From positions 1 to 64,000 of the IMG/VR virus record IMGVR_UViG_3300028571_000830: DNA of 64,000 bases. One strand, 5' to 3'. Under the pieces are notes generated by a model that saw only the letters and a program-made list of their open reading frames with translations, did not search any database and was not told where the DNA came from. Positions 31,001 to 50,395 of the stretch are shown here, in pieces. The translations under genes and the position numbers were made by a program. Numbering within the stretch: the first letter of the stretch is position 1; each line of letters opens with the position of its first letter. Origin of the DNA: a virus.

Positions 31001-31177
31001 AGAGAATAGTCTTTCCTGTACTCCATACCTTTCTTTAGCTCTGTCAGAAAATATAGTGTTATATTTTCTAAAAGCATTCAAGTCTAGAATATTAAGAAAT
31101 TTATCTATAATATTTCTAGTACGCATCCAAGCTTTTGTAGAAGCTTCTGCTGTTTTAAATTCGCAACTACTTGCCAT
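25049..31177 (-). CDS. 2042-aa multi-domain internal virion protein
   Basis: A giant protein with several enzyme-like domains. Near residue 207 is GHELLHSV, an intact HExxH zinc-peptidase motif. Residues 398-490 (VYHGTKGDTFEKYNTGEYGA) resemble an ADP-ribosyltransferase-type domain of polyvalent phage proteins. Around 577-581 is TEEVVHIA, a decayed zincin-like helix. Residues about 800-930 carry a RecB-type PD-(D/E)XK nuclease pattern (STVDFMAIE with D870, VDILDWKF with D892 and K894). A hydrophobic segment near 1890 (EFGVLFGMLGLLVAAKAAE) could cross a membrane. It directly follows the RNA polymerase gene, and is probably co-packaged and injected. Domain calls are by motif; activities are inferred. 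Confidence 0.7.
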   Translation of the reverse strand: MASSCEFKTAEASTKAWMRTRNIIDKFLNILDLNAFRKYNTIFSDRAKERYGVQERLFSEENDSTKAVPNKRAFKAIDNAKGFFYQVAPAGEIKPGVEELFDSNPELANQVYDALGFETPTTKLQGRKAIDGELVNFDVIEELTSGERNNIPSSILIKKLLNGGFLPKINETDIVLGGLEYGIWKPNLKKIEAQGGNKSTLAKKIGHELLHSVTDNIIYSYQNLKGVIDFNDKYNKDNIRQGYIKPVDLSKSQIEALDNLVRIRNKVVSYVEQNKDRIQKQDRGFGTYDYFIRTNYTESETDLHEFISEVFTNPELINILKEIPTEGKKSNLFKDFVDAVAKILGFTNTSILEDVIAYSEEAFFQQPQITPQQKQQALQLYSQYLDTIFPDSKVKDIVYHGTKGDTFEKYNTGEYGAVHFTTSYNQAKDYGKVIANLLNMRNPIQLEEGEQFYKDNYPNADSYFEKESVLGDELAVFEPEQIHILGNKQDIEGFKEFIKSSDTSLLQSTGVLSSTANKEVIDRMKEVATKMGVSLQDLSDYLKGNPDIPSTGINAVADLAQKTIAIATGKEGEAITEEVVHIATAMIEQTSPEIITTLISKIDKFKIYKVVLDKYSKLKAYQLPNGKPNIRKIKKEAVDKLIAELIINDGQNPDQFPELRQEENVNQVRSWWTSILDFIKSLYRKANIDLFKDVASQIVAGEIGPVTDVIGDEVFFQVQENPLVDQMYNTILEKDADLVLNDADPKDRYYMYKAIRVLKSVTQKIKEAYKGPERTEEQKKVDEQKRDWGLDGHRYLEKYISNVLIDENGYKRPTPVSGEVITTSLSKDIVDKVERFAVELINSYAPGTRFILEKMVINEKVKGLLASTVDFMAIEPITKADGTSDIKVDILDWKFSSIDKRREEDVPWFKQKEWKEQMGEYTKILYNYGLKPNQLRKARMIPFIVNYENSIPNDRKSPLIAKSVEIGKLDSLKETTLYLLPVPVNSESTGNEKVDSLLSAMRTEYDKLQSQYVPAEQQMAKRLRLSEYSKAIRQLHVKLDFEPLVNVGKTFIKNARLAIDNIKKTKFSDLSKEEIEIKLKELISYQNSADKFSALDVIFLSVFPKEGLSVEDKKVLSSLEDISTFTKRMDNEILELQREFAVEFALRQGVTTEADKMTALAAEAEVSMLEKNFIEGSKLSPKLIKAASNLVINVRSEVDIILSKAVGEFEKILLPLEKEARAKGKKAFDMIGTVTNGKLKLIKKIDPTFWEAINKAKKVRDKEFLIKNIDLEEYNKLSEEAIKKGMDEINRIQFFSDPEADAGQKAYIIKKLKDSLEINSSSFNGYEDFTFSYLFNRTMKEEGHYSQEYEEMRKSDAALAVWNFFIALNQKAKNLGYLEKEGSSFFPLIEATTLEKFGQRGDFFAQSSDFFKELYTAQVDEEQGFGVKDKETGKIVKQIPRYFKRSEKAADQLSRDLNKVGILWMKSLLNYEASKNMENTLLTLQAVEKAKGSLVLDENNNVIFEGGKPRVNEATNKNADILETIIDDDLYGIKENLNSLGNIQLTSFVGKLSKDQEAVEKRVVSSKKALKNADTLVRALAVGLKPLIAIANWAGYNFQALINGGNMYNYKEFMKNHVKVVAGLSTKEKALINIFVPLNEDIAGEKIKELAGKKSFLDFIGSWTFTDVMMSTNSFPEKRLQLTNALSFLDNSMVVDGKIINIRQHLRAQDRLAREKLSVPERQELEKSFEKRVLELKDKSALIHVVEVNEDGASIPGVSTQELAKYRTKIVEFGRKLNGQMSESNKAGYRRDSIFSSFMMFKHWIPKQVYVRTGDIKKDVELGEWEYGRARVFFKTWIALCNWNVNKMIQISNGSVEGLALLEELLASKKQDYFEKTGQELQITQEEFNDLIRTQISNQMKEFGVLFGMLGLLVAAKAAEPPEDATDLEKNRYKFWAKMINKISDEISFYYNPASADSITRGSLIPALGLGSKIFTFGEAFSKEVAGYVIDDPEMIDKNYPIKYFLNMIPIGAQLQTEVLPYLNPELAKELGIRVTTQSRQR

Positions 31178-31180
31178 ATA

Positions 31181-34100
31181 TTAACATTCAAATGGGTCTT
31201 GTGATTCGTTAGTTTCTGATGTCCAATCTTTATCTGTTATTGATAAATCTTTTCTTACTTCAAGTTCTTTAGATAGATCTATTGTAGGTTTAATAATAGT
31301 AGATGGTTGAGAAGTTTGAAGAGCATCATTTAATTGTTCTCTCCAATTTGAGTCAGCCATATTAATTGCAGGAATACCTTTTCTTCTAGCCATCTCTACA
31401 GCTTGTCCAGTTCCACCTTTAGGTCTAATACCTGATGTTTCTTGTGCATAGAATAAAACAAAGTCCACAGGAGTATTAAGATTATCACCAAATATTTGAT
31501 TTGTATTTCTAGCCATTAGTTTAAGAGCTCCTGGAGATAATGCTCCTGGATTAGGATGCAACTCTCTAGCAATGTTTTGTTCTTTAGGTCTACTTCCTTG
31601 TTTCTCAGGAGAGAACAAATTCTTTTTATTTGTTCCTTTAGAAAATGCTGCATCAGCACCCTCTTCTCCACCACGGAATGTAACTCCTGTGTTAAGTGTA
31701 TATCCTTTAGATGTTAGTTCTTTAGCTACTTGTGTCATTTGATTTAACACTTCTTGAGGAGTTTGTCTACTACCAATACCAGCATAAGTCATAGTTGGAA
31801 CTTCTGATTTAGAAGGAAGTTTATTAAACTCTGTCATATTTGGAGATTCTTGAATAGGTGCCTCTTGCAAAGGTATGGAAGTTGGTAGAAATTTCCTAAT
31901 TTCTGCATCAGTTCTTTCTGGAGAAGTGTAAATAGTTTCTTCTAATACATCCCCAAAGAAGTTGTATTGTTTAATGTAAGAACCTTTTTGTACAGGAATG
32001 AAATCATTGTCAAATACAGAAGGTCTTTCTGTGTCATAGAATTCATTAGCCCTAAATCCATCTCCCCAAGCATTTACCATTTTGTAAACAAAATTTTCAT
32101 ATTGTTTCTCTCTAAGGACTACAGGATCAGTTTTTAAATCATCATTATACACTTTAACAAATAATCCTCTTTTAATGAAAGAATAGTCTCTTATCTTACG
32201 CATTTCCTGTTTTTCTTTCTTACTAAGATTTGCTTCCCAAGTGTATACAATTGCATCTGATTGTGTAGCTCTAGAACGTGTAGATAGTTTTATAAGCTGT
32301 GGTATTTGTCCATTTGCAATGGCTGTTTTGATTGTATCTTTAAAAGATACCATTGGCATATTGTAATACCATCTTCCCGAAGCACTTATCCCTCCTCTAG
32401 CCTTTTCATGAGGAACAATTGTATTATCAGACCAGTTATTTCTTTGAAGAACATTGAGCTTGTAGTAATCCATTAAGTCAATATCTGTACGTTCTTCTAA
32501 ACTATTTATTACATCTCCATATACATCTTGGAAATCTTCATATGGAAGAAGGGATGTAAATGAATAAGGTGTAACTGAAAGCCCTGATTGTAGAATAGAC
32601 ACTGCTACAATCTTTTTGTAGGTTTTTAGATCCCCTATAGAAATAAAATAATTTCTCATCTCCCTAAAAGAGTATATGATTTGATCTTGATCATAAATCT
32701 TATTGTCTTTATTATCTATAGATAGATTGTTGGCTCTACCTGGTCTATCTGATGATTTTAGTACTAAGATACCTTTCTTACCAACAATATGATTATCATA
32801 TAGAGGATGGGTGGGATCTTGTGCTATATCATTTTTTAGATTAGTAATTTGTGTAGGAGCATTGTCATCTGATAATAATATAAGTTTAAGAAATTGATTT
32901 CTTTCATCTGTAAGTTGTACTGCCCAATCAAAGAAGTCATTAATAGCTTTTCTTGAAATCTTTAAGAAGTCTCTATCATTAGTAGTCAAAGTGTAAGGGC
33001 TTAATACGTCTTCTAGCACTTGTCTCACTTTACCTCTATCAGATAAGAAAATGGTATCACCTAAAGCACTTCTCATCTTTTCCACCCTATCTACAGTCTT
33101 TCTAATAAAGGAGTTTTCTAATAGAAAATCTGCAGAAGAAATGATAGATTTCTTAGCTCTTTCTAACTGTTCTGATTTTTTAAATACCAAGAAAGGGTCT
33201 CCAAGACTGGCTGTATCATAGTTGGTTCCTTGAGTTACGTAAAGCAACTGTTCAGACATCTTGGCATATTTCAAGAATTCAGTTAAAGCCACTTGTTGAA
33301 CAGCTTTGTCTTCAGGGGTAAATTCCTTGGCACCTACAAGTTCTCCTAGTTTAATAGTACTTGGTAGTTGATTGGGAAGAGGAGTGGAAGTTTTATACTT
33401 CTCTTGAGCTGCTTCTACAAATGAGTCTATAAATAGATATGAATATCCTGCATTTTCAATTTCTTGTAAGTAATCTAAAATGATAGGCTGGTTCATAAAG
33501 AAAGCCACTGTATCTATTGGCACTCCCAACTTAACTAAGAATAAAAACGTAGAAGCTACATTAGGCTTGGCTCCAAGTTGCATGATCCAAGGACCCTTTG
33601 AAATGTCCACATATCCATCAATGAATTGACCAATAATATCAGAAATATGTTGTCCTTTTGGATATTTTTTACTTCTTTCAGCATTTTTAATCATAGATAA
33701 AGTGGGTACTTCCTTACCGTTGATTTTTATCTTATTATATTCAGGAAGTTTAATAGTCATATCTACTGGATTCATAGAGCCTCCTGTCAACCAGAATTTA
33801 TCTTGTTTATCTAAATTTGCAAATCTAGACTCATCAATATAAATAGGTTGTCTTTGATTTAAGGAATGGTTTGTCTGAGCCACAGCCGCAATACCAATTG
33901 CATACTTACCTCTAACAAATGCATGTCTTAAAGTATCCATGAATGTTCTATCCAACATATTACCTACAGCATCACTTTCAAAAGTTTTTTCTCCTAGCTT
34001 TTTAGTAATATTATCTGCAAGATCTTTTAGTTGCTTTGCAGAATTGGGTTTAATTAGTTGTTCATAATTTGCTTCACTCGATACTAAATTCTGAAGAGAT

Positions 34101-37100
34101 TGAATGTAAGCATTCTCTAAAGACTTTCTGTACATTCTATCTGCAAGAACATCATAGTCATCCTCAATCTTATCAAGATCTTTATTTCTTTCTCCTAGAA
34201 GAACATATTCAATATCCTCTTTTATAATAAGATCTTTAATCTTTTGTTTAGCCTGATCCCCTATTCCAAAATAAGGAACTATCTTAAGATCTCCTTTAGC
34301 AGTGGTGTAGACATTCTTAAAGTAGATACTCAACTTGTCAATATCAAAGTCAGATCCCACTTTTCTAACAAGGGCAGAAGGAACTACAACAGAATCTCCA
34401 AATTCTTTTGGTAAGAATTGTTTAATTACAAAAGAATCAATTGAGTTTTGTTTCTGTGTAGGAATACGGAATGCAATTCCAGATAAAATCTTTTGTCCTT
34501 CAGGAGTGTTATTTAAGTATTCAAGAAGTTTCTCATCAGACATATTAGTATTAAACCATCTGCCCACCATAATCTCTGCTACACGTTTACCATCTTTCTC
34601 ATAAAACTTCAATACATCAGAAGTGTATCCCTCTTTACCATTGATAGAAGTTTTTTCAGCTCTTATTTCTTCAAGACCTGTAGAAGGAATTTGCACCTTT
34701 AAGCCTCCAGAAATCTTAGGAGAAACAATATACTTATCTACTAATGAGTAAAGAATACTTTTAATTTGGCTGTAAGCAGGGGTGGCTTCTAGTGCAGATT
34801 TGTCACTTAAGAAATCTTTTAAGGCTTGAACAATGTTTGAGTTCACCTCTCTTCTTAAGATTTCATCATTAAGAGCTTTTCCAGCTTTAGACTTATCCAC
34901 TATAACATAGGTGTCATCCTTTTCTTCTATGCCTAATTTGTTAAGAAGAGTTTGATATCCCATCTCTGTCATTTCTTCAAGAAGCATTTGATTATCTTGA
35001 ATCTCTCTAAACAGTGGGGATGTAGTTCTTCTTTCTTCATTGGACAACTTGCTCCATTCATCATATCCTTTCTCATAATCTATAGGTACTCCTGCATTCA
35101 TGAAGTCCATAGTTACAAGTTTGGTCACCTGAGATCCTCTAGTAACAAAAGGTTCTTCTTTTGAAGGCACATCAGATTGAATACTCATAATTGCAAAAGG
35201 CACTTTTATCTTCCCTTTATATGGAGTTGTATTAAATTTACCATCTGCATCATAGAATGGATTAGGAGATTCTGCTCCCACCTTTCTAGCAGTGTTAAAT
35301 ACAACATAGTCTATATTCTCTAGTTGCATTTTATCATAGAGCTTTAAAAGATTGGAAGAAACTCTTCCACCATTCTTAGCTATCTCTTTCTGCACACGAT
35401 AAGACAGAGGGTATAAAGCAAACTTATCTAAGATGACATCATTGTAAGGTCTGCCATTACCCTTGTTACCAGCAACAATAGGCTTTTGAGCAGTGTAAGT
35501 ACTAGTAACTCCAGGATTTCTTTTTGCTAACAGATCCATCTCTTCTTGAGAGAGAGGGATTTTCCTGTCTCTTTTTTCCCAAGCTACATCATACCTATAC
35601 TGAAGTTCTTCCATATCATTCCAATTACTAGCACGTATTCTTAAATTACGATAAGCTTTCATAGAAATCATACCACCACCATCTCCTTCATCCCAAGGCT
35701 CATAGTCTGGAAGATCAATAACTCCTTGAACATCTTCTAAAGTGGTGGATGTAAAATAATCTTGAGTAAAATCTGTATAACCAATATCTCCAGGCTCATA
35801 TCCTTCATTCCAAACTCTATTCATAACAGAGTTCATTTCACGAGAATTATTAATGATAGCTTGCCTAGGTGACAAGAAGTTCTTGATACGTTTTAACTCC
35901 TCTGAATATTGATATGGATCAGAGTATAATACTTTATGGAATTCAATATTATTAATAATGTAATTAGCAGTGAGTGTAGATAGAGCTAAGTCTAAATTTG
36001 CATTGGAGATTATTCTATTTTGGGCAAATGCCAAACTTTCTACATTATGAGTTTCTCCATCATCTGATTTAGAAATAATACTATACTTCTCTAATACATC
36101 ATATACCTTTTCAGACTCTGTTTTAATAAATTTTTCAACAGCAGAGTCTATTTTAGATTTATACTTATTATAGATTTCTTCTGGTGAAATAGTTTTATCT
36201 GAAAGAACAGTTTTAGATAATTCCTCTCCAAGAATAGCTTGCATAAATCTTAACTCACTATTCTTTCTCTTCTTAGCAACAGGACGTTTTTCTCTTACAA
36301 GATTAATCTCATCAATTAAGTATCCTCTAAATATATTATGAATTTGGGTATAGCCCATTCTCATATCTTCTTTAGTAATAGGATTACCCATGTAAGTCAT
36401 ATATTCTCTAGAGGCATCTCCTGCTACAAGATTGTAGTAGTAGCCATCTAAATTCATATTTATCTCTTGCACCATACGTTCTTTAAAGTTTAAAGAACTA
36501 GAAGCCTTCTTCTTACCCTTACCCTGATCATTCGTACCATCAGCAGCAGCAGGTTTTAATAGTTGATCTACATCTCCTCCAGTTCTTTTTGATCCTGTTT
36601 TTGTTTCTGGATCAATATTGAAAATGGAGTTCAGAAGAACAGAGTTTTGAGCAAAAGAATCTGTATACAAATAACTGTATTGAGGACTATCTTTCAAAGA
36701 CTCATAAGTAGGATATGCAGACAAAGCCTTGTATAAATCAGAACTAGGATTGGTACCAATAAAGGTTTGACTCTTCTCTCCATTAATAGCATAGAAAGTA
36801 CTGGCAAAGTCTGGGTTTTCAATCTTAGCTTTAATAGAAGCTAAAGTGAGAAGTCTGCTGTTAATATCTAAAGCCCTGCTACCAATAGTAGCGATTTTTT
36901 TTCTTTCAGTCATACTGGTTTTAATACCAGTGGTAGCTATATTAAACTTCTCAAACAAACTAGGATTGGTTATCTCTAAGTCTCTAAGATCTGAAGCATC
37001 AAACTCAATACCCAGAGAGGCTAAAAATTTAACCTTTTCTTCCAGAGTATTAATCTTTACACCATTGAAAGCTTTTTCCTTAGCTATATAAGCCTTTTGC

Positions 37101-40100
37101 TTAGTGTTGTATTCAAAATAAGGATTTTTAGGATTGTTAAATAATGCCCTCAAACCATTAATAAATCTAGACTCAATTTGTCTAGTAGCAGTGCTTAGGT
37201 TAGAATCCCCCACTTGCACATCTTCGTTTGCTAAAATGTTTAACATTTTAACATCAGGATTTTGTTTGTTAAAGGCAGTACTAAATGCAGCTATTAATTG
37301 TACATCATGTCTTTTTAGTAAAGACCAATCAATCTCATCAGAAGAACTCACCTTCGTCAGCCTTTTAAATAGAGTTTCATAGTTAGGGTCTTCTTTAGCC
37401 ATAGTCCTAAGCTTTTCAAGCATATCATCTGTAGATAATGCATCATGAACATTACTCATTACAGACACCCATGCTTCGCTTAGAGGTATTAGTTGTACAC
37501 CCCCTATAGATGTAGGTTTAGGCTTCCCATCTTGATTAAGTACAGGAAGTGTAGATAATAATAACTTAGTAGCACTATTAAGTTTTCTAAAGTGGTCAAT
37601 CTTATCAGCACCATCATATTCTCCTTTACCAGTTTTATCTGGATCATTAAGGTTTATACTATCATTATCATCAAACTCTACATCATATTTCTTAAGATAG
37701 ATCTCATGGGTTTTTAGAAGTTCTTCCCAATTTAATATAATAGAGTTAAATAAAGATTTGTACTTAGCAGTTTCTTTGTCTGCAGAAGCTTTTTTAGAAG
37801 CTTTTTTAGAAGCATCTTTTTCAGCTTCAGCTTCAGCTTGTGCAATATTAGACAAGCCTTTAATCTTTTCTCTTAAGTTAGCTTGTATTTTACCATACAG
37901 TTCTGTCTTATTAATAGGGGTCACTGCAAAAAGACTTTGATCATCTCTCTGCAAATAACCTAGAGTGAGAAAAGTCATATGCTGCATAATCTCATGTATC
38001 TGAGAATTAGTAAGTCCAGGTATTTCACTAAGTTCTGAACCTAAAACTATTTCAGCGTTCTCTATGTCAATGATTCCATCTTTAGCAAAAGATAGTGTAG
38101 ACTCCTCAGGGATGAATGTTTTGTAATACCCTGAACCAATTCTCTCAAATAGTTGTTTAGTATTATTAGATGCACTATCTCCAGTGAAGAAGTTCTTAAT
38201 AAAAGCTACAAGTTCTTTGAACAATCTAGAAATCAAAGACTGACCTTCCACCTTTGTGGTGGGAAGAATTCCATTATTAATATATGCTCTAAATTCTTCT
38301 GCTAGTTCTTCTTTAGCTTGTTGAGGAGTGGCTTCAGAATATTTAATTGTCTTACCTAACACTCTATCTACAAAAGAACCAGGACGATTTTTAAACTCTG
38401 AAAGTATAAGAGCCTGTTCTTTTGGATCAGTAAACATTTTCCAAATAGCCTCAAACACTTCATGATAAGCTGTACCCACTTCTGCATTTCTATAAACATA
38501 GATGGCCCCTTGGCTAAACATACCCCAGGCCTGCTTACCATTAGTAGATCTTAAAACATTCTTAACTCTATATACAGGGATGTTTGCTGGCAACACTTTC
38601 TTTAAGAAAGCCTCCACTTTATTCCAATCTTCTCCTTCATACTGATCCATAGTTTTGGAAACCATTTCACGAAGTTCTGGATCATCCGCATTTCCTTCTG
38701 TAGAATCCCAAGCATCATCTAATTGTTGATCTACAGCTGGTGTGATTTCTTCTGTAGTGATTTCTGCTTTAACTTCAGGGGCAGCTTCAATAACTGGAGC
38801 TTGGGCTGCAGCTTCTTGTTTAGCTTGTTCTAAAGCTGCAACATCTTTTGCTATCTCATTGAAAGTGTATTTAATAAGGGCAGCATTAGTTAATGCTTCT
38901 TTAGCTGTTTCCTCAGAAATAGTTTCTTCTCCAGCTCTATCAGAAATGTATTTATCAACAGCCTCTTGAGTTAAAGTTTTTTTGTAATTATCTTTAACCT
39001 TAATATCCACTTCAAAGTCTTTTAAAGTGTCAGGAGTGGCAGGATCATAAACAAATTTAATATTACCATCAAGTTTTGTTAGAGTGATGGTATTTGGAGT
39101 TTCTCCATCTAATACAAATTTTCCTTTAGGAGTTTCTGCTACAGGGGCTTTTTCTACAGGTTTTGCAGGTGTGCCAGGGGTTTGTATAGTGATGGCTTTT
39201 CCTTCAGGAGCTACATCTGTAGCCTGCTTATCAAAGTCTTTAGTATCAATGAAGAAATATATACCTGCCCTATTAGGTTGTCCCTCTTTAACAGGAGCCA
39301 TGTAAGTAGTTAGAGGAATATCTTCTGAAGCTCTATTTAAAGATAGTTTACCAGTGGCATCAGGAGCTTTATTAGACAATAAGTATGTTTGATAGTTTGG
39401 CCATACAACTGACTCATATTGTCCTTCAGAAGTTACAGAAATGATTTGCTCATATCTTTGATTGTAATAAGTGCTATCTGTTAATTTAGAATTTGTATTA
39501 GCATACATTTTCTGTAACAACATAGTGATGGTCCCTTTGTTTGCAGCTAGGTCAGTGGGTGTAAACTCTGAAACAGCCACCTCTTTACCAGACATAAAGA
39601 GTTTAAATCCTTCTGCAGTTTTATCAAACCATAAACTATTGTAGCTAGGATTTTTACCCTCTCTAGGAGTGCCCCAGTGAGTGACAGTTCTTAACCAATC
39701 AATAAGACGCATTGCTTCAGGAGAATCTGAAAGAACGAATTTACCTTTTGTGTTCTCTTCTACAATAACAGTGGCTAAACGCTGTAAGGCATCATAGATA
39801 GCATTAGCTTCTTTATCAGTGTGTTGTCTATTGTTTAAAGGTTGATAAGCATTCTTAAGTCTCAAGAAAGGTCTACCTAAAGCTTTTGAGAAAGATGTTG
39901 AACCTAAAGATATTTTCTCTTCCTGAGTGGGAACATATACCACTGGACTCTGTCTCAAGTCAGAATCTGTAATTAGTCCTGCGTCTTGTGTAGAAACTTT
40001 TGCATCATAGTCTGTTACAAATTTCTTTTTATCATCATCCCATTTTTGTACAAACTCAGGAATACCAAAAGATGCTTGTACATCATATCCTTTTAGAGAT

Positions 40101-43100
40101 GAGGAAGCTAGAGCTTCTTCTCTCCATTTAGTATAATTATAAGCACGTTTTATAACAGTCTCTTTGTTTACACTCTCTGAAAATAAGTTTTGTATACTAA
40201 GTGGGAATACCTGAAAAATCCCTTGATTATAAAGTCTCTCTACAAATTCTTCTTGGGATTCTCCTTTTTCTTTTGTTAAAGGCTTACCATTTTCATCCAC
40301 TGGAGTATATGTACCATTCTTGTTTTCAATAGCCATAACAAGAGAAACAGTTGTAGAACTATCCACATCTTCTTTACCTTGTTTTAAAAACTCTGTTAGT
40401 CCAGGAATAATTTCATCTTGGTTTGTAGAATTAACTACCACACCTTTAATTTTATTTCTGTTTGGCAAAGTGTTTAGTTTAATACCAAATTGATTTGCTC
40501 TTGCATGATAAGGAGCTTCTTCTTCCTGAGTTTCTTTAAAAGATCTTTTAGAAGGAACTATAGTGGCTCTATCAACAAGTTGTTCTGGCTTTTTAGCATC
40601 TGGTTCATAAGCCTTATCATATTGAGTATTTTGAGTACCTTGATTCAAGGTGCCCAGTATTTGTTTTACAATAGCTTCATTGTTTTTTATAAGGGCTTCT
40701 TCTGCTAGTTTTTGTTTATAAGCTTTAGCTACTGATTCAAACCTATCTAGAATAAGTTGTTTTGCTACAATCTCTTTCTGTAGTTCTACAGCATCTTTTT
40801 GGATAATATCTAAGTGTTCATTTAAATCTTTAATTCTTTGTTCATTGATAGATATATCTCCATCTTCAACATTAGTAATGAGATCATCTAGTTCAGAAAG
40901 TTCTTCTCTGTAAAGAGGTTTAACTTTTAAGAAATTAGGATTAATCTTTAAGAAATCTACAAATTCCTGTCCCATAATACGTGGAACATTTGGATACTTA
41001 GCTTCAAACTTACTAATTAAATTTGTTAAAAAATCTACAGCAGAGTCTATTGCTTTTTCTGTTTCCTTAATTAATTTTACTACTACAGAAATTTGGGCTC
41101 CTGTTTTTTCTTGAAGAAGTTCAAGGTCTAACACTTGATTATTTATCTCTTCTAAAAACTCAGAACTTTCTGTAGGGAGCACATCAATATTTTGAGCTAA
41201 GTCTGCTACATAGGCTAAGTTAAATTCAATTTCATCTTTGTCTGAATTTAAAGTTTCCATTTCTCTCTCTAGTTGCGTTTGCATTCTAGAAAGTTTCATA
41301 GCAGAAGAAAGTGCAGTTTTAGTTGCAGATTTAAAACGTACAGTGTTTTTAGATCTTTTATCTATCTCTGCGTTTGCTATTTCCTCCTCTAAAAGAGCTA
41401 AGTCTTTCTTAATTTTTGTAATTTCTTCTTGCTTTTTCTTGATTAAAGAATCTGTTTTTTCTTGATTAGAAGATAGTTCTTCAAATAAATCATTTAGGAT
41501 TTGTAATCTAAACTCTCTCTTTGCTCCAAGTCTATCATCCACTTCAGAAATAAATTCTTCTAGTACGGTCTGTTGTGCAGGAGTTAAGGTTTCTACTGAA
41601 GTGATCATAGCTTGTTTATATCCTTTTTGTGGAACAAACTGATCTCCAGTCACTTCTATAGTTTTTAGTTGTCCTTTTTTGTTGGTATAGACAAATAATA
41701 AAATACGTCCTTTTGGGTCATATTCTAATCTACCTTTAACTTTATTTCCTTTACCAAAGTTAAATTCAAATACAGTGTTTATATTTTTTAAGAAAAAATT
41801 AGCTTTCTTGTTGTTAATAGTGTCAGACACCTTTCCAAGTTTGTAGTCTGCCAATTCTTCTTTGGAGATGTTCTTTAAATTTCCCTCAGGAGTTTTTATT
41901 TGAATTGTACCATCTTCATTTTCACCTATAATAGATATAACAGGAAATCTATACACTGGATTTCCTTCAGCATCATATTTTATAGTTTTACCTAAGAAGT
42001 ATTCTGTACCTATTTCTACATCTTCTACACCATCTGCAGTTTTTAAACTGACAGTGTTTTTTTCCACCTCTCCTGTTTCTGGGTTTATTTGAGGTTCCAC
42101 TTTTACAGGCTCTATCTCCTTAAACTTTTTAGGAGAATTTTTAATATCATTATATTGATTTATAAATTCTTTTCTTAATATAGAAGCTCTTGCTAAATCT
42201 TTTAAATCTTGTAAAGAACTATCAGAATCTATATTTTTACTATCAGTTAATGTAGCTATTGCTTTATTATACTCACTATCATTATCATTTAATAAATCAT
42301 CTATAATAGTATCTGTATTTATTATTCCTGAATTATTAAGACTCATGGAAAGCTGAGGTATACGTACATCATAGTCTGCCACTTTACTTGCAGCATAAAC
42401 CATTTTGTCCATCACCTCAGAAGAATATAATTGTTTACCATCTTTATCTACAAGATTACCATATCTTAGATTTAAAGATTGATATAAAGATTTAACATTT
42501 CCAGCTGTTTGTTCTAAACTAGAAATTCTTTTTAAATATTTTTCTCTAGTATCTTCTTCAAGAACTTTTCCTTCTGATTGTAATTGAGCAAAACCTTCTT
42601 CTGTACTAGCAAGAGCTTTGTAGTCAGCAATATCTGACATTACTAAATCATATCTACCATACTTTATTCTAGGAGATAAGTAATTTATAATGTAATCAGT
42701 TTCTTTATCTTTACTTCCTGCTACATCCCCTTCTTTTAAAAGACCTTCTCTTTCTTCTTGAAGTATAGTTCCTCTATTAACAGAGTCAATAGTTTCTTTG
42801 GTAAAATCTGAAAGTTTAAACTTATTAAATTTTTGAATAGCATCTGCTGTATTTAAGGCTTTTTGTCCAGATTCTCTAAATCTACCCCTAGCTGTCATTA
42901 TAGATCCAGATAATCCACCAATCAAAACATTCTCCATACCCTCATCTGTACCCAGAGTTTGAGTAATTCCTTGGGATAGACTTTCTAAGAAATCTGTAGC
43001 ATCTCCTTTATATTTTTTATCATAATAATCATTCACACCTTTACCAATTGCAAATTGAGATCCTTCTTCAAAAGCCTCTGTTCCTGAGAATGAATATTTT

Positions 43101-44317
43101 CTAACTGTATCTAATCCTGATAAAACTTTACCAAAACCTTTCTTAGACACTTGTTCAGCGTATTCTCCTACACCAATTGTAGCTATATCTTTTATTTCTT
43201 TAGATAATGAATTGATAGCTCCTTTTTCTGCTGTATAAGTAGACCCTAATATTTTAGGAAACTGAATATAGTTGGTTGCAGATAGTAGTCCTACGTTAGC
43301 TAAGAAAGAAGCATTACCTACACTATCCGCAGCTTCATTAATTTCAGCTAAATCTGCTCCTTGAGGTTCTTGTCCAAAATTGTTTTCTTTGAACTCTCTA
43401 ATCTTTTGTTCTCTAAATTCATTTAGATTTTGAAAAGCTTCAAACCCTGCTTCTCCTGTAGTAGCTAGTCCTGCTACTAAAGCTCTTCCTCCTGGATTTA
43501 AAACATTATAACTACTTATAAACTTATCAGAAAGAGATCTTATCTTTCCATATGTATCTGCCACTTTACTCACACCTAGCAGTCCTTGTTCTGTAGCAGC
43601 TAAAGCTTCTGCAGCTTTACCCACTGAGAATAATCTAGCAGTGAGAGGAATAGCTTTTAAGCCTGCTGCAAAAGCTCCACCAGATAAGGCAGCTCCTGCT
43701 GCAAAACCTAAGTTCTTAATAATACCATCCCATAAAAAGTTAGCACTAAATAATTTTGTAGGTGAATACCATCTAGCATTCTTTTCTACATCTGTATAAT
43801 AATTAGGGGCAATGTCTTCTGCTTTTTTATTTATATCATCAACCCATCTATTTAAATCATTATCATAAAATGAAGCAGCTCTTCCATCAGCAAAACCTCT
43901 AGCAACACCATTAACTAGACCCACTGTTGATTGTAAGAATGTAGTACCTGTAAGTAATAGTCCTTTACCTACACTGTTAACCATTTTCTCAGTCCATCCT
44001 TGTCCTTGAGCATAGGCATCCTCATTATTATAATCTCCAGGAACAAAGTTATCATACCTAGGAGAACTAAGTTCTGAAAGACTTCTTTGAATAGATCCTC
44101 CAGTCATTTTTCCATCACTAGGTTTTTTAGAAAATAAAGAATTTTCTATAGCAGTTAATGAAGACACTGGTGCCTCTCTATTACCACTAGTTTTAGGCAT
44201 AGGATTATCTAAACCTCTAAATGCAACATTTGGAAGATCAGGAGAAGCTTGGGGAATATTAACATTATTAAATTGATTCTCTAATGCTGCTCTATCTACT
44301 AAAGGTTCGTCTACCAT
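31181..44317 (-). CDS. Giant crAss-like virion RNA polymerase (4378 aa), multi-domain
   Basis: Single-chain DNA-dependent RNA polymerase of the crAss/YonO type, presumed packaged and injected to transcribe early genes. VRKVGSDFDIDKLSIYF holds DFDID at residues 3323-3327, the metal-binding loop of the beta'-like double-psi barrel; a polymerase-like IPTQKQNSIDSFVIKQFLPK precedes it. TRGSQVTKLV (R3060, K3066) fits the beta-like barrel. Other parts: hydrophobic Gly/Ala helices near 205-230, coiled coil about 930-1205, a zincin-like AYHEVFEAIW (H1952) with the last His replaced by Glu, and a C-terminal SLOG domain (MTYAGIGSRQTPQEVL at 4176, then TGVTFRGGEEGADAAF). Related phage polymerases known to me are about half this length. 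Confidence 0.85.
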   Translation of the reverse strand: MVDEPLVDRAALENQFNNVNIPQASPDLPNVAFRGLDNPMPKTSGNREAPVSSLTAIENSLFSKKPSDGKMTGGSIQRSLSELSSPRYDNFVPGDYNNEDAYAQGQGWTEKMVNSVGKGLLLTGTTFLQSTVGLVNGVARGFADGRAASFYDNDLNRWVDDINKKAEDIAPNYYTDVEKNARWYSPTKLFSANFLWDGIIKNLGFAAGAALSGGAFAAGLKAIPLTARLFSVGKAAEALAATEQGLLGVSKVADTYGKIRSLSDKFISSYNVLNPGGRALVAGLATTGEAGFEAFQNLNEFREQKIREFKENNFGQEPQGADLAEINEAADSVGNASFLANVGLLSATNYIQFPKILGSTYTAEKGAINSLSKEIKDIATIGVGEYAEQVSKKGFGKVLSGLDTVRKYSFSGTEAFEEGSQFAIGKGVNDYYDKKYKGDATDFLESLSQGITQTLGTDEGMENVLIGGLSGSIMTARGRFRESGQKALNTADAIQKFNKFKLSDFTKETIDSVNRGTILQEEREGLLKEGDVAGSKDKETDYIINYLSPRIKYGRYDLVMSDIADYKALASTEEGFAQLQSEGKVLEEDTREKYLKRISSLEQTAGNVKSLYQSLNLRYGNLVDKDGKQLYSSEVMDKMVYAASKVADYDVRIPQLSMSLNNSGIINTDTIIDDLLNDNDSEYNKAIATLTDSKNIDSDSSLQDLKDLARASILRKEFINQYNDIKNSPKKFKEIEPVKVEPQINPETGEVEKNTVSLKTADGVEDVEIGTEYFLGKTIKYDAEGNPVYRFPVISIIGENEDGTIQIKTPEGNLKNISKEELADYKLGKVSDTINNKKANFFLKNINTVFEFNFGKGNKVKGRLEYDPKGRILLFVYTNKKGQLKTIEVTGDQFVPQKGYKQAMITSVETLTPAQQTVLEEFISEVDDRLGAKREFRLQILNDLFEELSSNQEKTDSLIKKKQEEITKIKKDLALLEEEIANAEIDKRSKNTVRFKSATKTALSSAMKLSRMQTQLEREMETLNSDKDEIEFNLAYVADLAQNIDVLPTESSEFLEEINNQVLDLELLQEKTGAQISVVVKLIKETEKAIDSAVDFLTNLISKFEAKYPNVPRIMGQEFVDFLKINPNFLKVKPLYREELSELDDLITNVEDGDISINEQRIKDLNEHLDIIQKDAVELQKEIVAKQLILDRFESVAKAYKQKLAEEALIKNNEAIVKQILGTLNQGTQNTQYDKAYEPDAKKPEQLVDRATIVPSKRSFKETQEEEAPYHARANQFGIKLNTLPNRNKIKGVVVNSTNQDEIIPGLTEFLKQGKEDVDSSTTVSLVMAIENKNGTYTPVDENGKPLTKEKGESQEEFVERLYNQGIFQVFPLSIQNLFSESVNKETVIKRAYNYTKWREEALASSSLKGYDVQASFGIPEFVQKWDDDKKKFVTDYDAKVSTQDAGLITDSDLRQSPVVYVPTQEEKISLGSTSFSKALGRPFLRLKNAYQPLNNRQHTDKEANAIYDALQRLATVIVEENTKGKFVLSDSPEAMRLIDWLRTVTHWGTPREGKNPSYNSLWFDKTAEGFKLFMSGKEVAVSEFTPTDLAANKGTITMLLQKMYANTNSKLTDSTYYNQRYEQIISVTSEGQYESVVWPNYQTYLLSNKAPDATGKLSLNRASEDIPLTTYMAPVKEGQPNRAGIYFFIDTKDFDKQATDVAPEGKAITIQTPGTPAKPVEKAPVAETPKGKFVLDGETPNTITLTKLDGNIKFVYDPATPDTLKDFEVDIKVKDNYKKTLTQEAVDKYISDRAGEETISEETAKEALTNAALIKYTFNEIAKDVAALEQAKQEAAAQAPVIEAAPEVKAEITTEEITPAVDQQLDDAWDSTEGNADDPELREMVSKTMDQYEGEDWNKVEAFLKKVLPANIPVYRVKNVLRSTNGKQAWGMFSQGAIYVYRNAEVGTAYHEVFEAIWKMFTDPKEQALILSEFKNRPGSFVDRVLGKTIKYSEATPQQAKEELAEEFRAYINNGILPTTKVEGQSLISRLFKELVAFIKNFFTGDSASNNTKQLFERIGSGYYKTFIPEESTLSFAKDGIIDIENAEIVLGSELSEIPGLTNSQIHEIMQHMTFLTLGYLQRDDQSLFAVTPINKTELYGKIQANLREKIKGLSNIAQAEAEAEKDASKKASKKASADKETAKYKSLFNSIILNWEELLKTHEIYLKKYDVEFDDNDSINLNDPDKTGKGEYDGADKIDHFRKLNSATKLLLSTLPVLNQDGKPKPTSIGGVQLIPLSEAWVSVMSNVHDALSTDDMLEKLRTMAKEDPNYETLFKRLTKVSSSDEIDWSLLKRHDVQLIAAFSTAFNKQNPDVKMLNILANEDVQVGDSNLSTATRQIESRFINGLRALFNNPKNPYFEYNTKQKAYIAKEKAFNGVKINTLEEKVKFLASLGIEFDASDLRDLEITNPSLFEKFNIATTGIKTSMTERKKIATIGSRALDINSRLLTLASIKAKIENPDFASTFYAINGEKSQTFIGTNPSSDLYKALSAYPTYESLKDSPQYSYLYTDSFAQNSVLLNSIFNIDPETKTGSKRTGGDVDQLLKPAAADGTNDQGKGKKKASSSLNFKERMVQEINMNLDGYYYNLVAGDASREYMTYMGNPITKEDMRMGYTQIHNIFRGYLIDEINLVREKRPVAKKRKNSELRFMQAILGEELSKTVLSDKTISPEEIYNKYKSKIDSAVEKFIKTESEKVYDVLEKYSIISKSDDGETHNVESLAFAQNRIISNANLDLALSTLTANYIINNIEFHKVLYSDPYQYSEELKRIKNFLSPRQAIINNSREMNSVMNRVWNEGYEPGDIGYTDFTQDYFTSTTLEDVQGVIDLPDYEPWDEGDGGGMISMKAYRNLRIRASNWNDMEELQYRYDVAWEKRDRKIPLSQEEMDLLAKRNPGVTSTYTAQKPIVAGNKGNGRPYNDVILDKFALYPLSYRVQKEIAKNGGRVSSNLLKLYDKMQLENIDYVVFNTARKVGAESPNPFYDADGKFNTTPYKGKIKVPFAIMSIQSDVPSKEEPFVTRGSQVTKLVTMDFMNAGVPIDYEKGYDEWSKLSNEERRTTSPLFREIQDNQMLLEEMTEMGYQTLLNKLGIEEKDDTYVIVDKSKAGKALNDEILRREVNSNIVQALKDFLSDKSALEATPAYSQIKSILYSLVDKYIVSPKISGGLKVQIPSTGLEEIRAEKTSINGKEGYTSDVLKFYEKDGKRVAEIMVGRWFNTNMSDEKLLEYLNNTPEGQKILSGIAFRIPTQKQNSIDSFVIKQFLPKEFGDSVVVPSALVRKVGSDFDIDKLSIYFKNVYTTAKGDLKIVPYFGIGDQAKQKIKDLIIKEDIEYVLLGERNKDLDKIEDDYDVLADRMYRKSLENAYIQSLQNLVSSEANYEQLIKPNSAKQLKDLADNITKKLGEKTFESDAVGNMLDRTFMDTLRHAFVRGKYAIGIAAVAQTNHSLNQRQPIYIDESRFANLDKQDKFWLTGGSMNPVDMTIKLPEYNKIKINGKEVPTLSMIKNAERSKKYPKGQHISDIIGQFIDGYVDISKGPWIMQLGAKPNVASTFLFLVKLGVPIDTVAFFMNQPIILDYLQEIENAGYSYLFIDSFVEAAQEKYKTSTPLPNQLPSTIKLGELVGAKEFTPEDKAVQQVALTEFLKYAKMSEQLLYVTQGTNYDTASLGDPFLVFKKSEQLERAKKSIISSADFLLENSFIRKTVDRVEKMRSALGDTIFLSDRGKVRQVLEDVLSPYTLTTNDRDFLKISRKAINDFFDWAVQLTDERNQFLKLILLSDDNAPTQITNLKNDIAQDPTHPLYDNHIVGKKGILVLKSSDRPGRANNLSIDNKDNKIYDQDQIIYSFREMRNYFISIGDLKTYKKIVAVSILQSGLSVTPYSFTSLLPYEDFQDVYGDVINSLEERTDIDLMDYYKLNVLQRNNWSDNTIVPHEKARGGISASGRWYYNMPMVSFKDTIKTAIANGQIPQLIKLSTRSRATQSDAIVYTWEANLSKKEKQEMRKIRDYSFIKRGLFVKVYNDDLKTDPVVLREKQYENFVYKMVNAWGDGFRANEFYDTERPSVFDNDFIPVQKGSYIKQYNFFGDVLEETIYTSPERTDAEIRKFLPTSIPLQEAPIQESPNMTEFNKLPSKSEVPTMTYAGIGSRQTPQEVLNQMTQVAKELTSKGYTLNTGVTFRGGEEGADAAFSKGTNKKNLFSPEKQGSRPKEQNIARELHPNPGALSPGALKLMARNTNQIFGDNLNTPVDFVLFYAQETSGIRPKGGTGQAVEMARRKGIPAINMADSNWREQLNDALQTSQPSTIIKPTIDLSKELEVRKDLSITDKDWTSETNESQDPFEC

Positions 44318-44328
44318 TATATATTATT

Positions 44329-46944
44329 TTAAAAAGGTTTTTTAGATGCATTCTTCACTCTGTTTAAATCTGCAGAGGTGGGAGCTTTATCATTGATTAA
44401 TTCATACATAGCAGCATCATTTAAGTTAATTAATGCTTCTGCTATTCTGTCTTCACTTAAAAGACCTGTACGTGGGTATGCAAGATTATCTTGCCATTGT
44501 TTTGTTTCAGGATCAAAGCCACTAACTCTAATAGAATATCCTCCATTATATTGTACTATGTTTGCTTTAACTCCATATATACTTACACTTGGAAAATCTA
44601 TAGAATTTAAAAAAGCGTTTGTATGAGAAGATTGTCCTGGAGAATATGCAGTACTATTACCTCCCATTTTTCTCATTTGTTCAAGATAGGGTTTTACCAT
44701 TTGTATTGCAGGAGAAGAATCAAACCTATTACCAAACATGGCTTTTTTTTGTTCAGGAGTCATTCTAACTTTTGTAGAACCATCCTTTCCTGTATAACTC
44801 AATTCATACATTGAAGGCTCTATTTCAGATCCCTCTACCACTTTTATAGATCCTGTTAAATTAGGATCTAAAGCTATATCTCTTGCAATACCTGGATCAA
44901 ATCCAGGAGAATTAGCAATACCTCCTTTTTGAGATTCTGCTAAGTCAGCAAATCTAGTTAAGGATGTAGCAAAACTACTTCTCTGAGCTCCAGTTCCTGT
45001 AGGAATTTCGTAATCCATAGCTTGAGAAGCTGTAAGTCTTTTTGTTACTTCTTGAGCTGTAAAATTATTTATAGCTGTTAGTTTTTCACGATAAGGTTGA
45101 TTTACAGTTTTAAAGTAATTATCTGCATTGTTTACTATTATTTTTTCATATTCAGATAAAGGTTTACTTTGTTGTTTCTTTTTATATATATTATATAAAT
45201 ATAACTCTTTATCTGATAACTCTGATTTAGCTTTATCATCATCAAAAAACAAAGACCCACTTCCTCCTGGTCCTGCTGGACCTAAATACTTACTGTATTT
45301 ATTAAAAGTTTGATTGAAGTCAACAAAATCTTTAGGAGAAAAAGAATAAGATACATTAGACATTTTTACATTAATGTTAGGAGCATTTCTAGGAATTAAA
45401 TCTGTAATGCTACCATAAGGTCTTCCTGTTTTTGGATCTATTTGTTGAGAAGCTAGTTTATTGATATCTCCAACCATAATCTTATTAGCATCTAATCTTC
45501 TTCTTTGGTTTTCTGTATTATTAAAATGTGCAGCAATACCTGGATCAACACCATTAGGATTTTTATCCCAAGCTACTTTCTGTAAGTCTAACCAGTTTTG
45601 ATCTTTACCTTCTTGTTGTAAAAAAGATCTATCTGAATTAACTATAGCTTTTTCTCCTTGCTCAATCTCTACTACCACTCTACCTAAGTTGTATTGAGGA
45701 ACATCTGAAACATCTCTACCCCCTGGCAATCCTCCATATCCAGCATCTCCTTCTGCTTTTAATCTATTAGCCTCCACCTTAGTGCCAATGTCTAACATTT
45801 GCAGTTCACGATCTTGCCTCATCTTTCTCTCATCTTGCTCAAGATTCATAACAGCTATTTTCCAAGTCTGTTCTTTAACCTCTCTTTGCATTTGCATATC
45901 TGCTAGTTCACTCTTTTCATAAGTCTTAGAAGTCTCAGTAAAAGAAAAAGCTTTTGAAAAACCATTTATGAAATTAATTGTTTCAAGTTTTGCTTTTGCA
46001 GATTCTACATCTCCCTTAGCAAATGTACTTGTTACATTTTCATATTCACTTTTCATGCTAGCCAACATTTTATCTATAGAATCTACTTGAGCTTTTAAGG
46101 TATTTTTTTCAACGTTTGAGCTAGTCTGAGAAATGGCTGCTAAGATTTCTTCTTTTTGAGCCATGAAAGATGTTTCTTTAGATTTATAAGAATTCTCAAT
46201 ACTTTGAATAAACTTATCATCAGGAATATTGGCATAGTTATACCTACCATCTATTTCCATTTGTTTAAAGTCTGCAGGGCTAAGTCCAACCATTAATGCT
46301 TGTTGAATTCTTTCTGGAGATATACCAGCCATTTTTTGACGAACAACAGCATCTGCAATTACAAGATTTCCTTTTTCATCCATTTTAAATGCATTCTCTG
46401 TAATTGTAGAATCTCCTGTTAATTGTTTAATTACTTCTAAAGCATTCTTTTTATTATTTGTATATGGAGTGTAAGAACCAGAAAAAGAAGCGTTAACATC
46501 TTCATTATTTAACCACTTACTTGCATCTTGTTTAAATATTGCATCATTAGAGGGAGAAGATTTACCTTCCTTCTGAGCATTCTGCATATCTGCCATACCT
46601 CTTCTATAAACATTTGTAGAAGACACAGCACTTTGAATAGTAGTATCTTTACCAATTTGTTTTGCCATCCCCCCTACAGAATTAACTAATTGATAATTAG
46701 AGAAATCTCCAGCAGCAACTGTTTTAAGTTTAGATCCTAGTTGATTGAGTTTAGATTGAAGATATGCTTTGTCTACATCTCTAACAACATCAAGTCCTGC
46801 AACATTATCAATGCTAGTTTGAATCTTTTCGACACCCTCATCATAGCGTTTTTGTTTTTCCATACCAACTTGAACCATTGCCTCTATAGGCAATTGTTGG
46901 ATGTATGGATTAAACTTTGGGGCAATATCTGTATATGAAGCCAT
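44329..46944 (-). CDS. 871-aa internal virion protein upstream of the polymerase
   Basis: A largely helical, polar protein without transmembrane segments. The N-terminus, FNPYIQQLPIEAMVQVGMEK followed by YDEGVEKIQTSIDNVAGLDV, is a conserved opening that I recall from proteins next to the crAss-like RNA polymerase. Heptad-like segments lie around 270-330 and 340-400. No enzyme motif seen. It is the first gene behind a well-formed promoter and is followed by the polymerase after 11 bases, so a capsid cargo or polymerase-partner role is the simplest reading. Confidence 0.62.
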   Translation of the reverse strand: MASYTDIAPKFNPYIQQLPIEAMVQVGMEKQKRYDEGVEKIQTSIDNVAGLDVVRDVDKAYLQSKLNQLGSKLKTVAAGDFSNYQLVNSVGGMAKQIGKDTTIQSAVSSTNVYRRGMADMQNAQKEGKSSPSNDAIFKQDASKWLNNEDVNASFSGSYTPYTNNKKNALEVIKQLTGDSTITENAFKMDEKGNLVIADAVVRQKMAGISPERIQQALMVGLSPADFKQMEIDGRYNYANIPDDKFIQSIENSYKSKETSFMAQKEEILAAISQTSSNVEKNTLKAQVDSIDKMLASMKSEYENVTSTFAKGDVESAKAKLETINFINGFSKAFSFTETSKTYEKSELADMQMQREVKEQTWKIAVMNLEQDERKMRQDRELQMLDIGTKVEANRLKAEGDAGYGGLPGGRDVSDVPQYNLGRVVVEIEQGEKAIVNSDRSFLQQEGKDQNWLDLQKVAWDKNPNGVDPGIAAHFNNTENQRRRLDANKIMVGDINKLASQQIDPKTGRPYGSITDLIPRNAPNINVKMSNVSYSFSPKDFVDFNQTFNKYSKYLGPAGPGGSGSLFFDDDKAKSELSDKELYLYNIYKKKQQSKPLSEYEKIIVNNADNYFKTVNQPYREKLTAINNFTAQEVTKRLTASQAMDYEIPTGTGAQRSSFATSLTRFADLAESQKGGIANSPGFDPGIARDIALDPNLTGSIKVVEGSEIEPSMYELSYTGKDGSTKVRMTPEQKKAMFGNRFDSSPAIQMVKPYLEQMRKMGGNSTAYSPGQSSHTNAFLNSIDFPSVSIYGVKANIVQYNGGYSIRVSGFDPETKQWQDNLAYPRTGLLSEDRIAEALINLNDAAMYELINDKAPTSADLNRVKNASKKPF

Positions 46945-50000: not shown

Positions 50001-50395
50001 TGTTTAGCTTCTTTAACAGCTTTGTTCTGATCTTTAATCATAGACACTCCTTCTACAACATCCATTCCTGCTTGAATATAACCAGCAGCTCCTCCTCCTC
50101 CTTTAATACCAGGAACTTTATAAGCATCTAATGTAGCTGGGGTTTTAGGCATTCCTCCCATAGTATTTGTAGCACCAATAGTTTTAGCTAAAGGTATAAC
50201 TTCTCCTCTTTGTGCAATAGGTGGATTACCAAAATCACTTAACTGATGAAGTTGTTTTTTCACCATAGAAGCACCCATAGCAGCTTTCTTAAAAGCTTTA
50301 CCATGCATCTTCATAAATGCTTCTTCTGTTGGGAATTTTTTGTAAAAGCTCTTCTCATCTTTTACACCTGCTAGTTTTAAAATTTCACTCTTCAT
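47033..50395 (-). CDS. 1120-aa internal virion protein with repeated x-GG motifs
   Basis: A large protein with Ala/Gly-rich patches. Residues about 403-440 (GAAAGTYFGGPVGAAVGKFAG) form a glycine-zipper-like hydrophobic segment able to insert in or line a membrane channel. Around it lie many short segments with Gly-Gly or Gly-Ala next to Met/Gln/Asp: MEDGGWVSND, IAQYGAEI, LRAGGHLKS, KLGASIPMAQKG. The C-terminal half is Gln/Ala-rich helix (LNQAKLQNLQIYDTQQQRQE). The position between virion transglycosylase and polymerase suggests an ejected internal protein, perhaps part of a DNA-delivery channel. No catalytic motif recognised. Confidence 0.62.
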   Translation of the reverse strand: MKSEILKLAGVKDEKSFYKKFPTEEAFMKMHGKAFKKAAMGASMVKKQLHQLSDFGNPPIAQRGEVIPLAKTIGATNTMGGMPKTPATLDAYKVPGIKGGGGAAGYIQAGMDVVEGVSMIKDQNKAVKEAKQNSLLTGVQADAAASQRRQPLKNYYTRPEDTIIQPDQLSPSYGVGTNILSAQNGKVVPNWATDLNTRLLNAVSTFGGSAIGDAVKGVSPRAADWLNENSMGFIPYTTDEQLMATRAGNPDRGMNTAVQASDAVTNLLLNKMIGPLAGKTNTAIKKGTSKVVKGATNFAQDFSKGYKAVPTREDGGNIIAQYGAEIQNTYAPNTLYDDLGYEPLNDSDQIKAFYHGGRIPMAASGFSTAINQGGFGNAMNNQGGSEALGNISNMLINKGRGPSAGSKIGGGVGAAAGTYFGGPVGAAVGKFAGQAIGSLIDQSGRNIEKYDDISNRNIAGMMGNYIPQQFGNVMEDGGWVSNDWQPQVIAKFGEYDVKDLLHPPADADMLRAGGHLKSYTPPSERAMQTYAMGGELQVYRGEAEPISNNPYLPDGGETVMFRGPSHENGGMPISYGQSPVEVEGGEPAVKLRDGGSGEDNMVVFGNLKINKEGANILGNPKLKNQKFKNYVNDLSKIEAKQNKLIDNSTDMLDNLDVNSSFDKLKMSALQANLMGGNMKLKDIAGKKQDAADLQSAINDTAEEYNLVADDLAQGKIKKAKLGASIPMAQKGYTSKYGLKPWEGNKDALGQKTKSAYNAEQLDNIAKSLGFTGKGNKEFQEFLLKDPKRAALIKSKNKELYGTEDVKIDDMLGAAYNVKDFLYQANPLDYGTPLKPGSLPSNDNYAKLTKRTQDEQLKTLLANMKDLKEREAPKSSWLEQGIGAFNQVLPFLRPTDAEQLDPRQLMGEMYALSNNQLEPVQAQTFQPQLQTPYDISLQDQLNEITAQTRQAERLAGNNPEALAAIYGQATMAKNQILGEQMRINQGQRAQTYAGNIDALNQAKLQNLQIYDTQQQRQEAAKSATKATTQEALNSIASKYAQNKLENRQLGVMENLYNYRYDKSGRAINMNPLAQFDLDIQSMTPKELEAMATIKEAQEKKAKSAKNVKSRNGSIVKAIKNL

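Follow-up and report, generated by a model that had tools for sequence, protein, structure and literature searches.

A giant crAss-like virion RNA polymerase fused to its neighbour, and terminal cysteines that may couple ejected phage proteins end to end

The 4378-aa open reading frame (ORF) found in a 64,000-nucleotide stretch of viral DNA (hereafter the window; positions 1 to 64,000 of the 116,917-base record IMGVR_UViG_3300028571_000830) encodes a virion-type crAss-like RNA polymerase. The polymerase itself is of normal size and, as in many crAss-like phages, is joined to its neighbour in one giant gene. Comparison with related phages makes it probable, in our judgement, that besides this fusion to a g067-like protein, terminal cysteines couple the ejected proteins C-end to N-end, most likely by a disulfide. 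The features discussed are listed in Table 1.

Table 1. Features of the polymerase gene block in the window
Feature	Position	Strand	Details
1120-aa protein	47033..50395	minus	zero Cys; 15 expected, P 3e-7
871-aa protein	44329..46944	minus	zero Cys; 11.7 expected, P 8e-6
Giant fused g067-like + virion RNA polymerase (g066-like) gene	31181..44317	minus	4378 aa; sole Cys is the final residue
N-terminal module, g067-like	42128..44218	minus	residues 34-730; homologous to phi14:2 g067, cr111_1 gp32, phi17:2 gp39 and the Leptolyngbya phage 1552-aa protein
Pro/Ala/Glu-rich linker, low conservation	38648..39220	minus	residues ~1700-1890; former junction of two proteins
Zincin-like motif HEVFE	38450..38464	minus	residues 1952-1956
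RNA polymerase core as modelled	33218..36730	minus	residues 2530-3700
RGSQVTK, conserved GSQxxK of first barrel region	35120..35140	minus	residues 3060-3066
DFDID, catalytic metal-binding loop	34337..34351	minus	residues 3323-3327
SLOG / DprA-like tail	31310..31792	minus	residues 4176-4336; phrog_768 E 3.6e-42
C-terminal cysteine codon, proposed coupler to next protein	31184..31186	minus	residue 4378
Downstream protein, g065-like	25049..31177	minus	2042 aa; last member of the proposed chain
N-terminal cysteine codon of 2042-aa protein, proposed coupler	31163..31165	minus	residue 5
ART-PolyVal-like stretch	29795..29989	minus	residues 397-461, variable head of 2042-aa protein; Pfam PF18760 E 9e-6, under curated cut-off

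The ORF is real: its 4378 codons are open without interruption, and at its 33% G+C so long a stop-free run has a chance probability of ~1e-161. A sequence-only reading of the window had taken it for a crAss-like single-chain polymerase with a DxDxD loop, and the two motifs on which it relied, DFDID and RGSQVTK, are both found where it had placed them. Among 68 aligned sequences, DFDID is invariant (68/68) bar one I/V change, with the catalytic aspartates fully kept, and Q3063 and K3066 of GSQxxK are invariant as well; the context YRIPTQ...GSDFDIDK is common to the 4378-aa chain, phi14:2 and gut crassviruses. The cr108_1 polymerase gene is interrupted precisely within DFDID, with ~290 bases between the parts (L001:17581-17893), probably a self-splicing intron.

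Three comparisons bear out the assignment: (i) tblastn with the polymerase core matches crAss-like phages, including phi14:2 g066 (E 1e-15); (ii) a profile of 34 relatives run against the whole PDB has a single match, 6VR4 (E 3.4e-28), with GSDFDIDK aligned on GSDFDIDK; and (iii) the AlphaFold model of the core (pLDDT 82, pTM 0.77) has 6VR4 as its one significant match in the PDB (E 6.7e-33, TM 0.67 by query length). 6VR4 is phi14:2 gp66 (g066), a characterised virion RNA polymerase. Structure prediction and profile comparison had been suggested as checks by the sequence-only reading, and the whole-core match points to a two-barrel polymerase fold predicted to lie in one chain. The T7-like single-subunit fold of the N4 type was not matched, 6VR4 being the sole significant PDB chain in both the profile and the fold search. 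With the single sequence as query, a Pfam search of the 4378-aa chain returned nothing convincing, phmmer found no match in the PDB, and a search for relatives found none, whereas an alignment as query found hundreds; profiles were needed. By homology to phi14:2 and crAss001, the polymerase of this uncultured virus would enter the virion, be ejected together with the DNA and transcribe the early genes (PMC7886860, PMC10172136).

The portal protein matches 146 phage records, and the best among the matches listed are crassviruses (E to 1e-54); the large terminase subunit (TerL) is closest to those of Leptolyngbya phage Lbo-JY46 and crAssE-Sib; and the candidate capsid ORF has a single tblastn match, again in Lbo-JY46 (E 1e-32). 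Among isolates, this cyanobacterial phage (PP438436.1, L091) comes nearest in terminase, capsid candidate and large tail protein, and portal and terminase similarity groups the virus with Crassvirales and their outer relatives. Elsewhere in the window (1090-3030), a UvsX-like recombinase of 646 aa matches an HNH nuclease at residues ~266-312, which is likely to be an intein or some other inserted element.

The chain had been described as twice the usual size, with about 2900 residues of extra cargo in front of the enzyme and 1000 behind. Neither description holds. Of the IMG/VR contigs scanned, 475 are confirmed to carry relatives, and the 67 complete environmental relatives measure 3735-4744 aa (median 4280), 16 of them being at least as long as the 4378-aa chain. 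The gut crassvirus versions reach 4328 aa (cr109_1), 4551 aa (cr1_1) and 5801 aa (cr130_1), and recoded TAG codons are read through in two of these three. In phi14:2, the same block consists of three proteins of 1797 (g067), 2180 (g066) and 1421 (g065) aa. The N-terminal module matches g067-type proteins, by family HMM (E 1e-59 to 2e-51 against cr111_1 gp32, phi17:2 gp39 and the Leptolyngbya phage 1552-aa protein) and by blastp against phi14:2 g067 (E 3e-6). Most of the residues outside it fall within regions shared with phi14:2 g066, where sequence similarity is weak. Because the module is of g067 type, the chain is g067 plus g066 joined through the linker; in one relative (L026), the g067-like and g066-like proteins are encoded by separate, overlapping genes that meet at about the linker position. 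The polymerase thus lies between the fused g067-like part and the g065-like protein, after the tail and cargo genes, and the lineage-specific cargo is the SLOG tail only (~200 aa). Fusion and large multidomain proteins have previously been described in this gene block (PMC7886860). Identity along the chain is uneven, suggesting a mosaic history: the N-terminal module (42398-44317) is up to 67% identical to that of L028, versus about 49% in the polymerase core (33218-36730), and among the relatives of the core are some whose N-terminal regions are just 14-15% alike.

Smaller parts had also been proposed within the chain (coiled coil, zincin-like and SLOG). The SLOG part stands; this tail is little occupied in the alignment, and most relatives do not have it. 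As for the zincin-like part, its motif stands, with H and E invariant in the 68 sequences. The model of the region is poor (pLDDT 70, pTM 0.41) and a fold search with it gave no match, which limits the zincin assignment to the motif. At the third ligand position, 53 of the 68 sequences have E and 15 have H, i.e. HExxE or HExxH, and this is possibly an altered or dead peptidase. Polyvalent proteins (Iyer et al. 2017) unite multiple effector or enzymatic domains, zincin, ART and SLOG types among them, in a single injected phage chain; of these features, the SLOG tail is clear here, the ART-PolyVal-like stretch falls under the cut-off and the zincin is a motif. The next protein resembles g065 (blastp E 1e-4) and cr108_1 gp52 (family HMM E 5e-63). 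Its conserved part is separated from the conserved polymerase end by a variable stretch of 107-905 residues (25049-32005 here, and the same place in L011-L090). This stretch holds exchangeable modules (i.e. SLOG types, NADAR, DUF7831, histidine phosphatase, ART-PolyVal and MuF-C) or, instead, whole genes (CAAX-type protease, GIY-YIG).

The sequence-only reading had further suggested that such a chain may be cleaved after packaging. A polyprotein cut by its own zincin-like part, or by another protease, into g067- and polymerase-sized pieces would suit the low-conservation linker, at which L026 and phi14:2 have separate proteins, and the invariant HE motif. However, the linker is poorly conserved and its alignment, inspected short of an in-depth search, has no conserved cut site; HE..H motifs also occur in phages with separate proteins (LMMB, phi14:2 g065); the third zincin ligand is mostly Glu and the fold is unrecognised; and the fused polymerase of P23-45 is found at full size in virions (PMC10770324). 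We found nothing in support of cleavage itself, regard it as very improbable, and note that the cysteine pattern described below argues for linking rather than cutting.

The virus's other ORFs predict 59 cysteines in a chain of this length, against the one found (P about 1e-24). The two upstream proteins devoid of cysteine (871 and 1120 aa) are, from their gene position, probably ejected cargo. We noticed a cysteine rule, after the fact, in the first set of relatives, taking the first ATG as the start codon and counting the six residues at each end. The polymerase has a cysteine in its last six residues in 67/67 cases and in its first six in 0/67, and the next protein has one in its first six residues in 64/65 and in its last six in 0/65. 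At the polymerase C-end, cysteine occurs 67 times versus 0.2 expected, and the next most enriched residue, lysine, 50 times versus 29. Cysteine is the only nearly invariant column in each of the end alignments, where mean identity is 12-13%.

A second scan, seeded with phi14:2 after the rule had been stated, gave 80 contigs, phi14:2 itself excluded, in which the eight residues at each end were counted. Cysteine is present at the N-end of 55/55 unfused polymerases, at the polymerase C-end in 70/71 cases, in 61/62 next proteins and in 47/50 preceding proteins. The sole failure at both the C-end and downstream is L182, whose polymerase ORF ends 120 residues past the motif and is probably an interrupted gene. 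When the complete unique chains of both sets are pooled, all unfused polymerases have a cysteine at both ends (53/53), and 49 of these 53 have no further one in 2090-3046 residues. Fused polymerases have the C-end cysteine in 77/77 cases and the N-end cysteine in 0/77; downstream proteins have it at the N-end in 116/117 and preceding proteins at the C-end in 42/46. In the sole downstream exception (L016), the start is likely wrong and MATCPN follows a short way after it; other deviations are cysteines 12 (L126/L127) and 32 (L113) residues from the end. These counts do not represent independent events, since each set is made up of related sequences. Both scans relied on patterns surrounding the polymerase motif; motif-less phages are therefore represented by phi17:2, the Leptolyngbya phage and crAssE-Sib only.

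Three downstream proteins also have a cysteine at the C-end. Two are known extra ORFs that precede the usual next protein. The third, an 1167-aa protein of L167 with cysteines at both ends, predicts a further member with an N-end cysteine, and the next ORF (1308 aa) has its sole cysteine at position 4. The CAAX-type protease and GIY-YIG nuclease genes inserted at the junction in other contigs are without the cysteine pair. Among 178 control ORFs, 29 have a cysteine in the first eight residues and 22 in the last eight. Of the latter, 21 contain other cysteines as well, and many of these ORFs are downstream genes on the opposite strand; the remaining one (L169) is a first member missed by the filter, which leaves no lone end cysteine outside the series among the 22. 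At least 11 of the 29 have a three-cysteine fibre-type start. In the window, such a start (near residues 5, 10 and 18) occurs in a collagen-like or other fibre-region protein (19266-21713), and it recurs in fibre-region proteins of L011, L032, L039, L043, L046, L051, L062, L072, L074, L080 and L088. It differs from the end-coupler pattern and is possibly a trimer cross-link.

We tallied cysteine positions with protein length in CHARACTERISED phages; every junction has one of two forms, peptide bond or cysteine pair. Those of phi14:2 are 1797 of 1797 residues in g067, 3 and 2179 of 2180 in g066 and 3 of 1421 in g065; those of phi17:2 are 1957 of 1957 in gp39, 4 and 516 of 517 in gp38 and 3 of 1914 in gp36. 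In crAss001, gp47 (2339 of 2341), gp50 (5, 1334 and 2404 of 2412) and gp49 (5 of 1349) keep the rule even though gp47, the first gene, lies on the strand opposite to the other two. The Leptolyngbya phage has Cys 1552 in its 1552-aa protein and Cys 4 in its 2748-aa protein; its coupler pair is thus present, and its two largest block proteins contain no convincing DxDxD motif. Fpv3 has gp32 (4286 of 4287) and gp33 (3 and 1461 of 1596). In crAssE-Sib, a 2208-aa protein (Cys 2208) and a 752-aa protein (5, 339, 475 and 751) are followed about 8 kb on by a 281-aa ORF (Cys 5). This ORF overlaps an 1885-aa remainder (L107:31086-37488), presumably one interrupted gene, and the coupler rule points to it as the true gene start. 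LMMB, cr3_1 and cr271_1 have a first protein with a C-end cysteine and a polymerase with the N-end but without the C-end cysteine; length, together with the LMMB annotation, suggests that this polymerase is fused to the last protein. The C-end cysteine is likewise present in the fused chains of Suoliviridae (that of cr10_1 lies 10 residues from the end), and the next protein has the N-end one wherever that protein was available. Middle members with cysteines at both ends are phi14:2 g066, phi17:2 gp38, the extra ORFs of L023 and L030 and the separate polymerase of L026. Internal cysteines are scarce in the environmental chains (L011-L090, L109-L187) and number 5-26 in several gut phages (among L001-L007 and L094-L102), crAss001 and cr1_1 being gut phages without such high counts. 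A lone end cysteine with no evident partner occurs in three proteins of the cargo regions, i.e. an 861-aa protein of LMMB (Cys 860; L004:1156-3741), Fpv3 gp30 (Cys 5; L103:29912-31708) and a 674-aa protein of the Leptolyngbya phage (Cys 5; L091:27334-29358).

At the level of predicted proteins, these tallies demonstrate (i) a polar series, here starting with the 4378-aa chain, in which the first member has a cysteine at the C-end only, middle members at both ends and the last at the N-end only; (ii) a swap between fusion and cysteine pair, the end cysteines of a junction being absent where its two members are peptide-fused; and (iii) a short supply of other cysteines in the environmental members. 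The end cysteines might instead be the by-product of a nucleic-acid signal, DNA or RNA, at the junctions of genes (a recombination site or start/stop context), since they adjoin the gene ends. We give this hardly any credence: their distance from the protein end varies (0-5 residues), TGT:TGC usage at the two sites (55:12 and 56:8) equals the background (116:24), and the rule is kept with genes on opposite strands in crAss001 or ~8 kb apart in crAssE-Sib, which argues against a DNA-junction motif. Another explanation, unlikely although by a smaller measure, is an ordinary fused polymerase whose end cysteines, like those of its neighbours, serve each protein alone, in capsid, portal or membrane anchoring or in homodimers of like ends. 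The fusions and large multidomain proteins already described in the block (PMC7886860) agree with it, as do the few cargo proteins whose lone end cysteine has no obvious partner, but it predicts neither the polarity of the series nor the loss of junction cysteines on fusion (0/77 fused N-ends).

The chemistry of the junction can be narrowed from the same ends. Histidines average 0.07 per protein in the last 20 residues and 0.13 in the first 20. Paired end thiols that hold a metal ion or cluster, perhaps shared by two parallel chains, would couple the proteins non-covalently with the same pairing pattern, and two side-by-side chains would supply four cysteines (two + two); within one chain, however, a usual zinc site needs more than a single cysteine at each end and histidine is scarce, so we consider this improbable. 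Native chemical ligation was set aside, as the N-end cysteine lies at position 2-8, usually 3-4 and never 1. A disulfide fits best because there is one thiol per end, histidines near the ends are few, the N-end cysteine is off position 1 and virion disulfides are known in crAss001, where they link tail hubs, ring proteins and the gp57 dimer (PMC10172136).

If so, the terminal cysteines would join neighbours C-end to N-end with one disulfide per junction, formed in the virion, and the set would be packaged and threaded through the narrow tail as a single chain of about 725 kDa (492 + 232 kDa here). The host cytoplasm would then reduce the disulfides, and the freed parts would refold. Loss of other cysteines would avoid wrong disulfides. 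Peptide fusion would be the equivalent of a disulfide junction and serve the same end, because proteins linked C-end to N-end all run in one direction, like a single long polypeptide. In its full form, the proposal is that the ejected proteins of Crassvirales and their relatives are one reducible chain, its terminal disulfides made in the virion, undone in the host cytoplasm and interchangeable in evolution with fusion, and that nearly all other cysteines were shed to allow it; we hold this tentatively, at a little under an even chance. In crAss001, the cargo proteins have been argued to need partial unfolding to pass constrictions below 50 Å (PMC10172136). Its gp47, gp50 and gp49, whose published masses add up to ~694 kDa, were identified in published work by mass spectrometry after digestion, which is silent on linkage; mass spectrometry of crAss001 virions has covered reduced as well as non-reduced samples (PMC10172136). 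Several points stand against coupling: the bond is inferred from sequence alone; gut phages keep the end cysteines despite little oxygen, and several hold 5-26 internal ones; a few proteins (L126/L127, L113) deviate in the position of the cysteine; certain cargo proteins that are not part of the series carry a single end cysteine with no evident partner; and the ejection proteins of N4 are cysteine-free and yet ejected, so the shedding of internal cysteines may be common to ejected proteins.

End-to-end bonds that last outside the cell and open inside would partly answer how proteins of hundreds of kDa pass, in order and in a fixed ratio, through a tail channel narrower than the folded protein. 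They would also account for genes that occur fused in certain phages but as individual genes elsewhere. The pattern extends across very diverse phages, including the cultured phi14:2, phi17:2, crAss001 and Fpv3, and provides a simple sequence rule by which members of the ejected set, inserted extra ones included, and broken gene models can be recognised. Searches of an open-access library gave no paper on terminal cysteines in crAss-like phages; earlier mention elsewhere is possible.

So far, end couplers appear in Crassvirales and their relatives only. The N4 virion RNA polymerase gp50 has a T7-like polymerase fold. It is likewise a giant ejected polymerase, and the ejected proteins gp50, gp51 and gp52 are free of cysteine (0 in 3500, 644 and 150 aa); unlike the proteins described here, they have no end cysteines. 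Another giant virion protein with a DxDxD polymerase is P23-45 gp96 (PMC10770324), in which, by contrast, the polymerase is at the N-end and fused to the tape-measure protein. The fused Suoliviridae polymerases cr1_1 gp76, cr109_1 gp53 and cr130_1 gp79, and also Fpv3 gp32, are single chains of 4287-5801 aa that have the C-end cysteine and are followed by a protein with the N-end one, the chains of cr109_1 and cr130_1 being annotated as DprA-like. These chains differ in being only 22-26% identical in the matched parts, and several have internal cysteines; in Fpv3 gp32, a search for the strict SDxDxD pattern did not find it, and the polymerase there is putative. The closest likeness to a characterised polymerase is to phi14:2 gp66 (6VR4), with a homologous core and DFDID loop, the same gene order and the same pattern of end cysteines; the difference is that g067 and g066 are separate in phi14:2, whereas here they form one chain with a SLOG tail.
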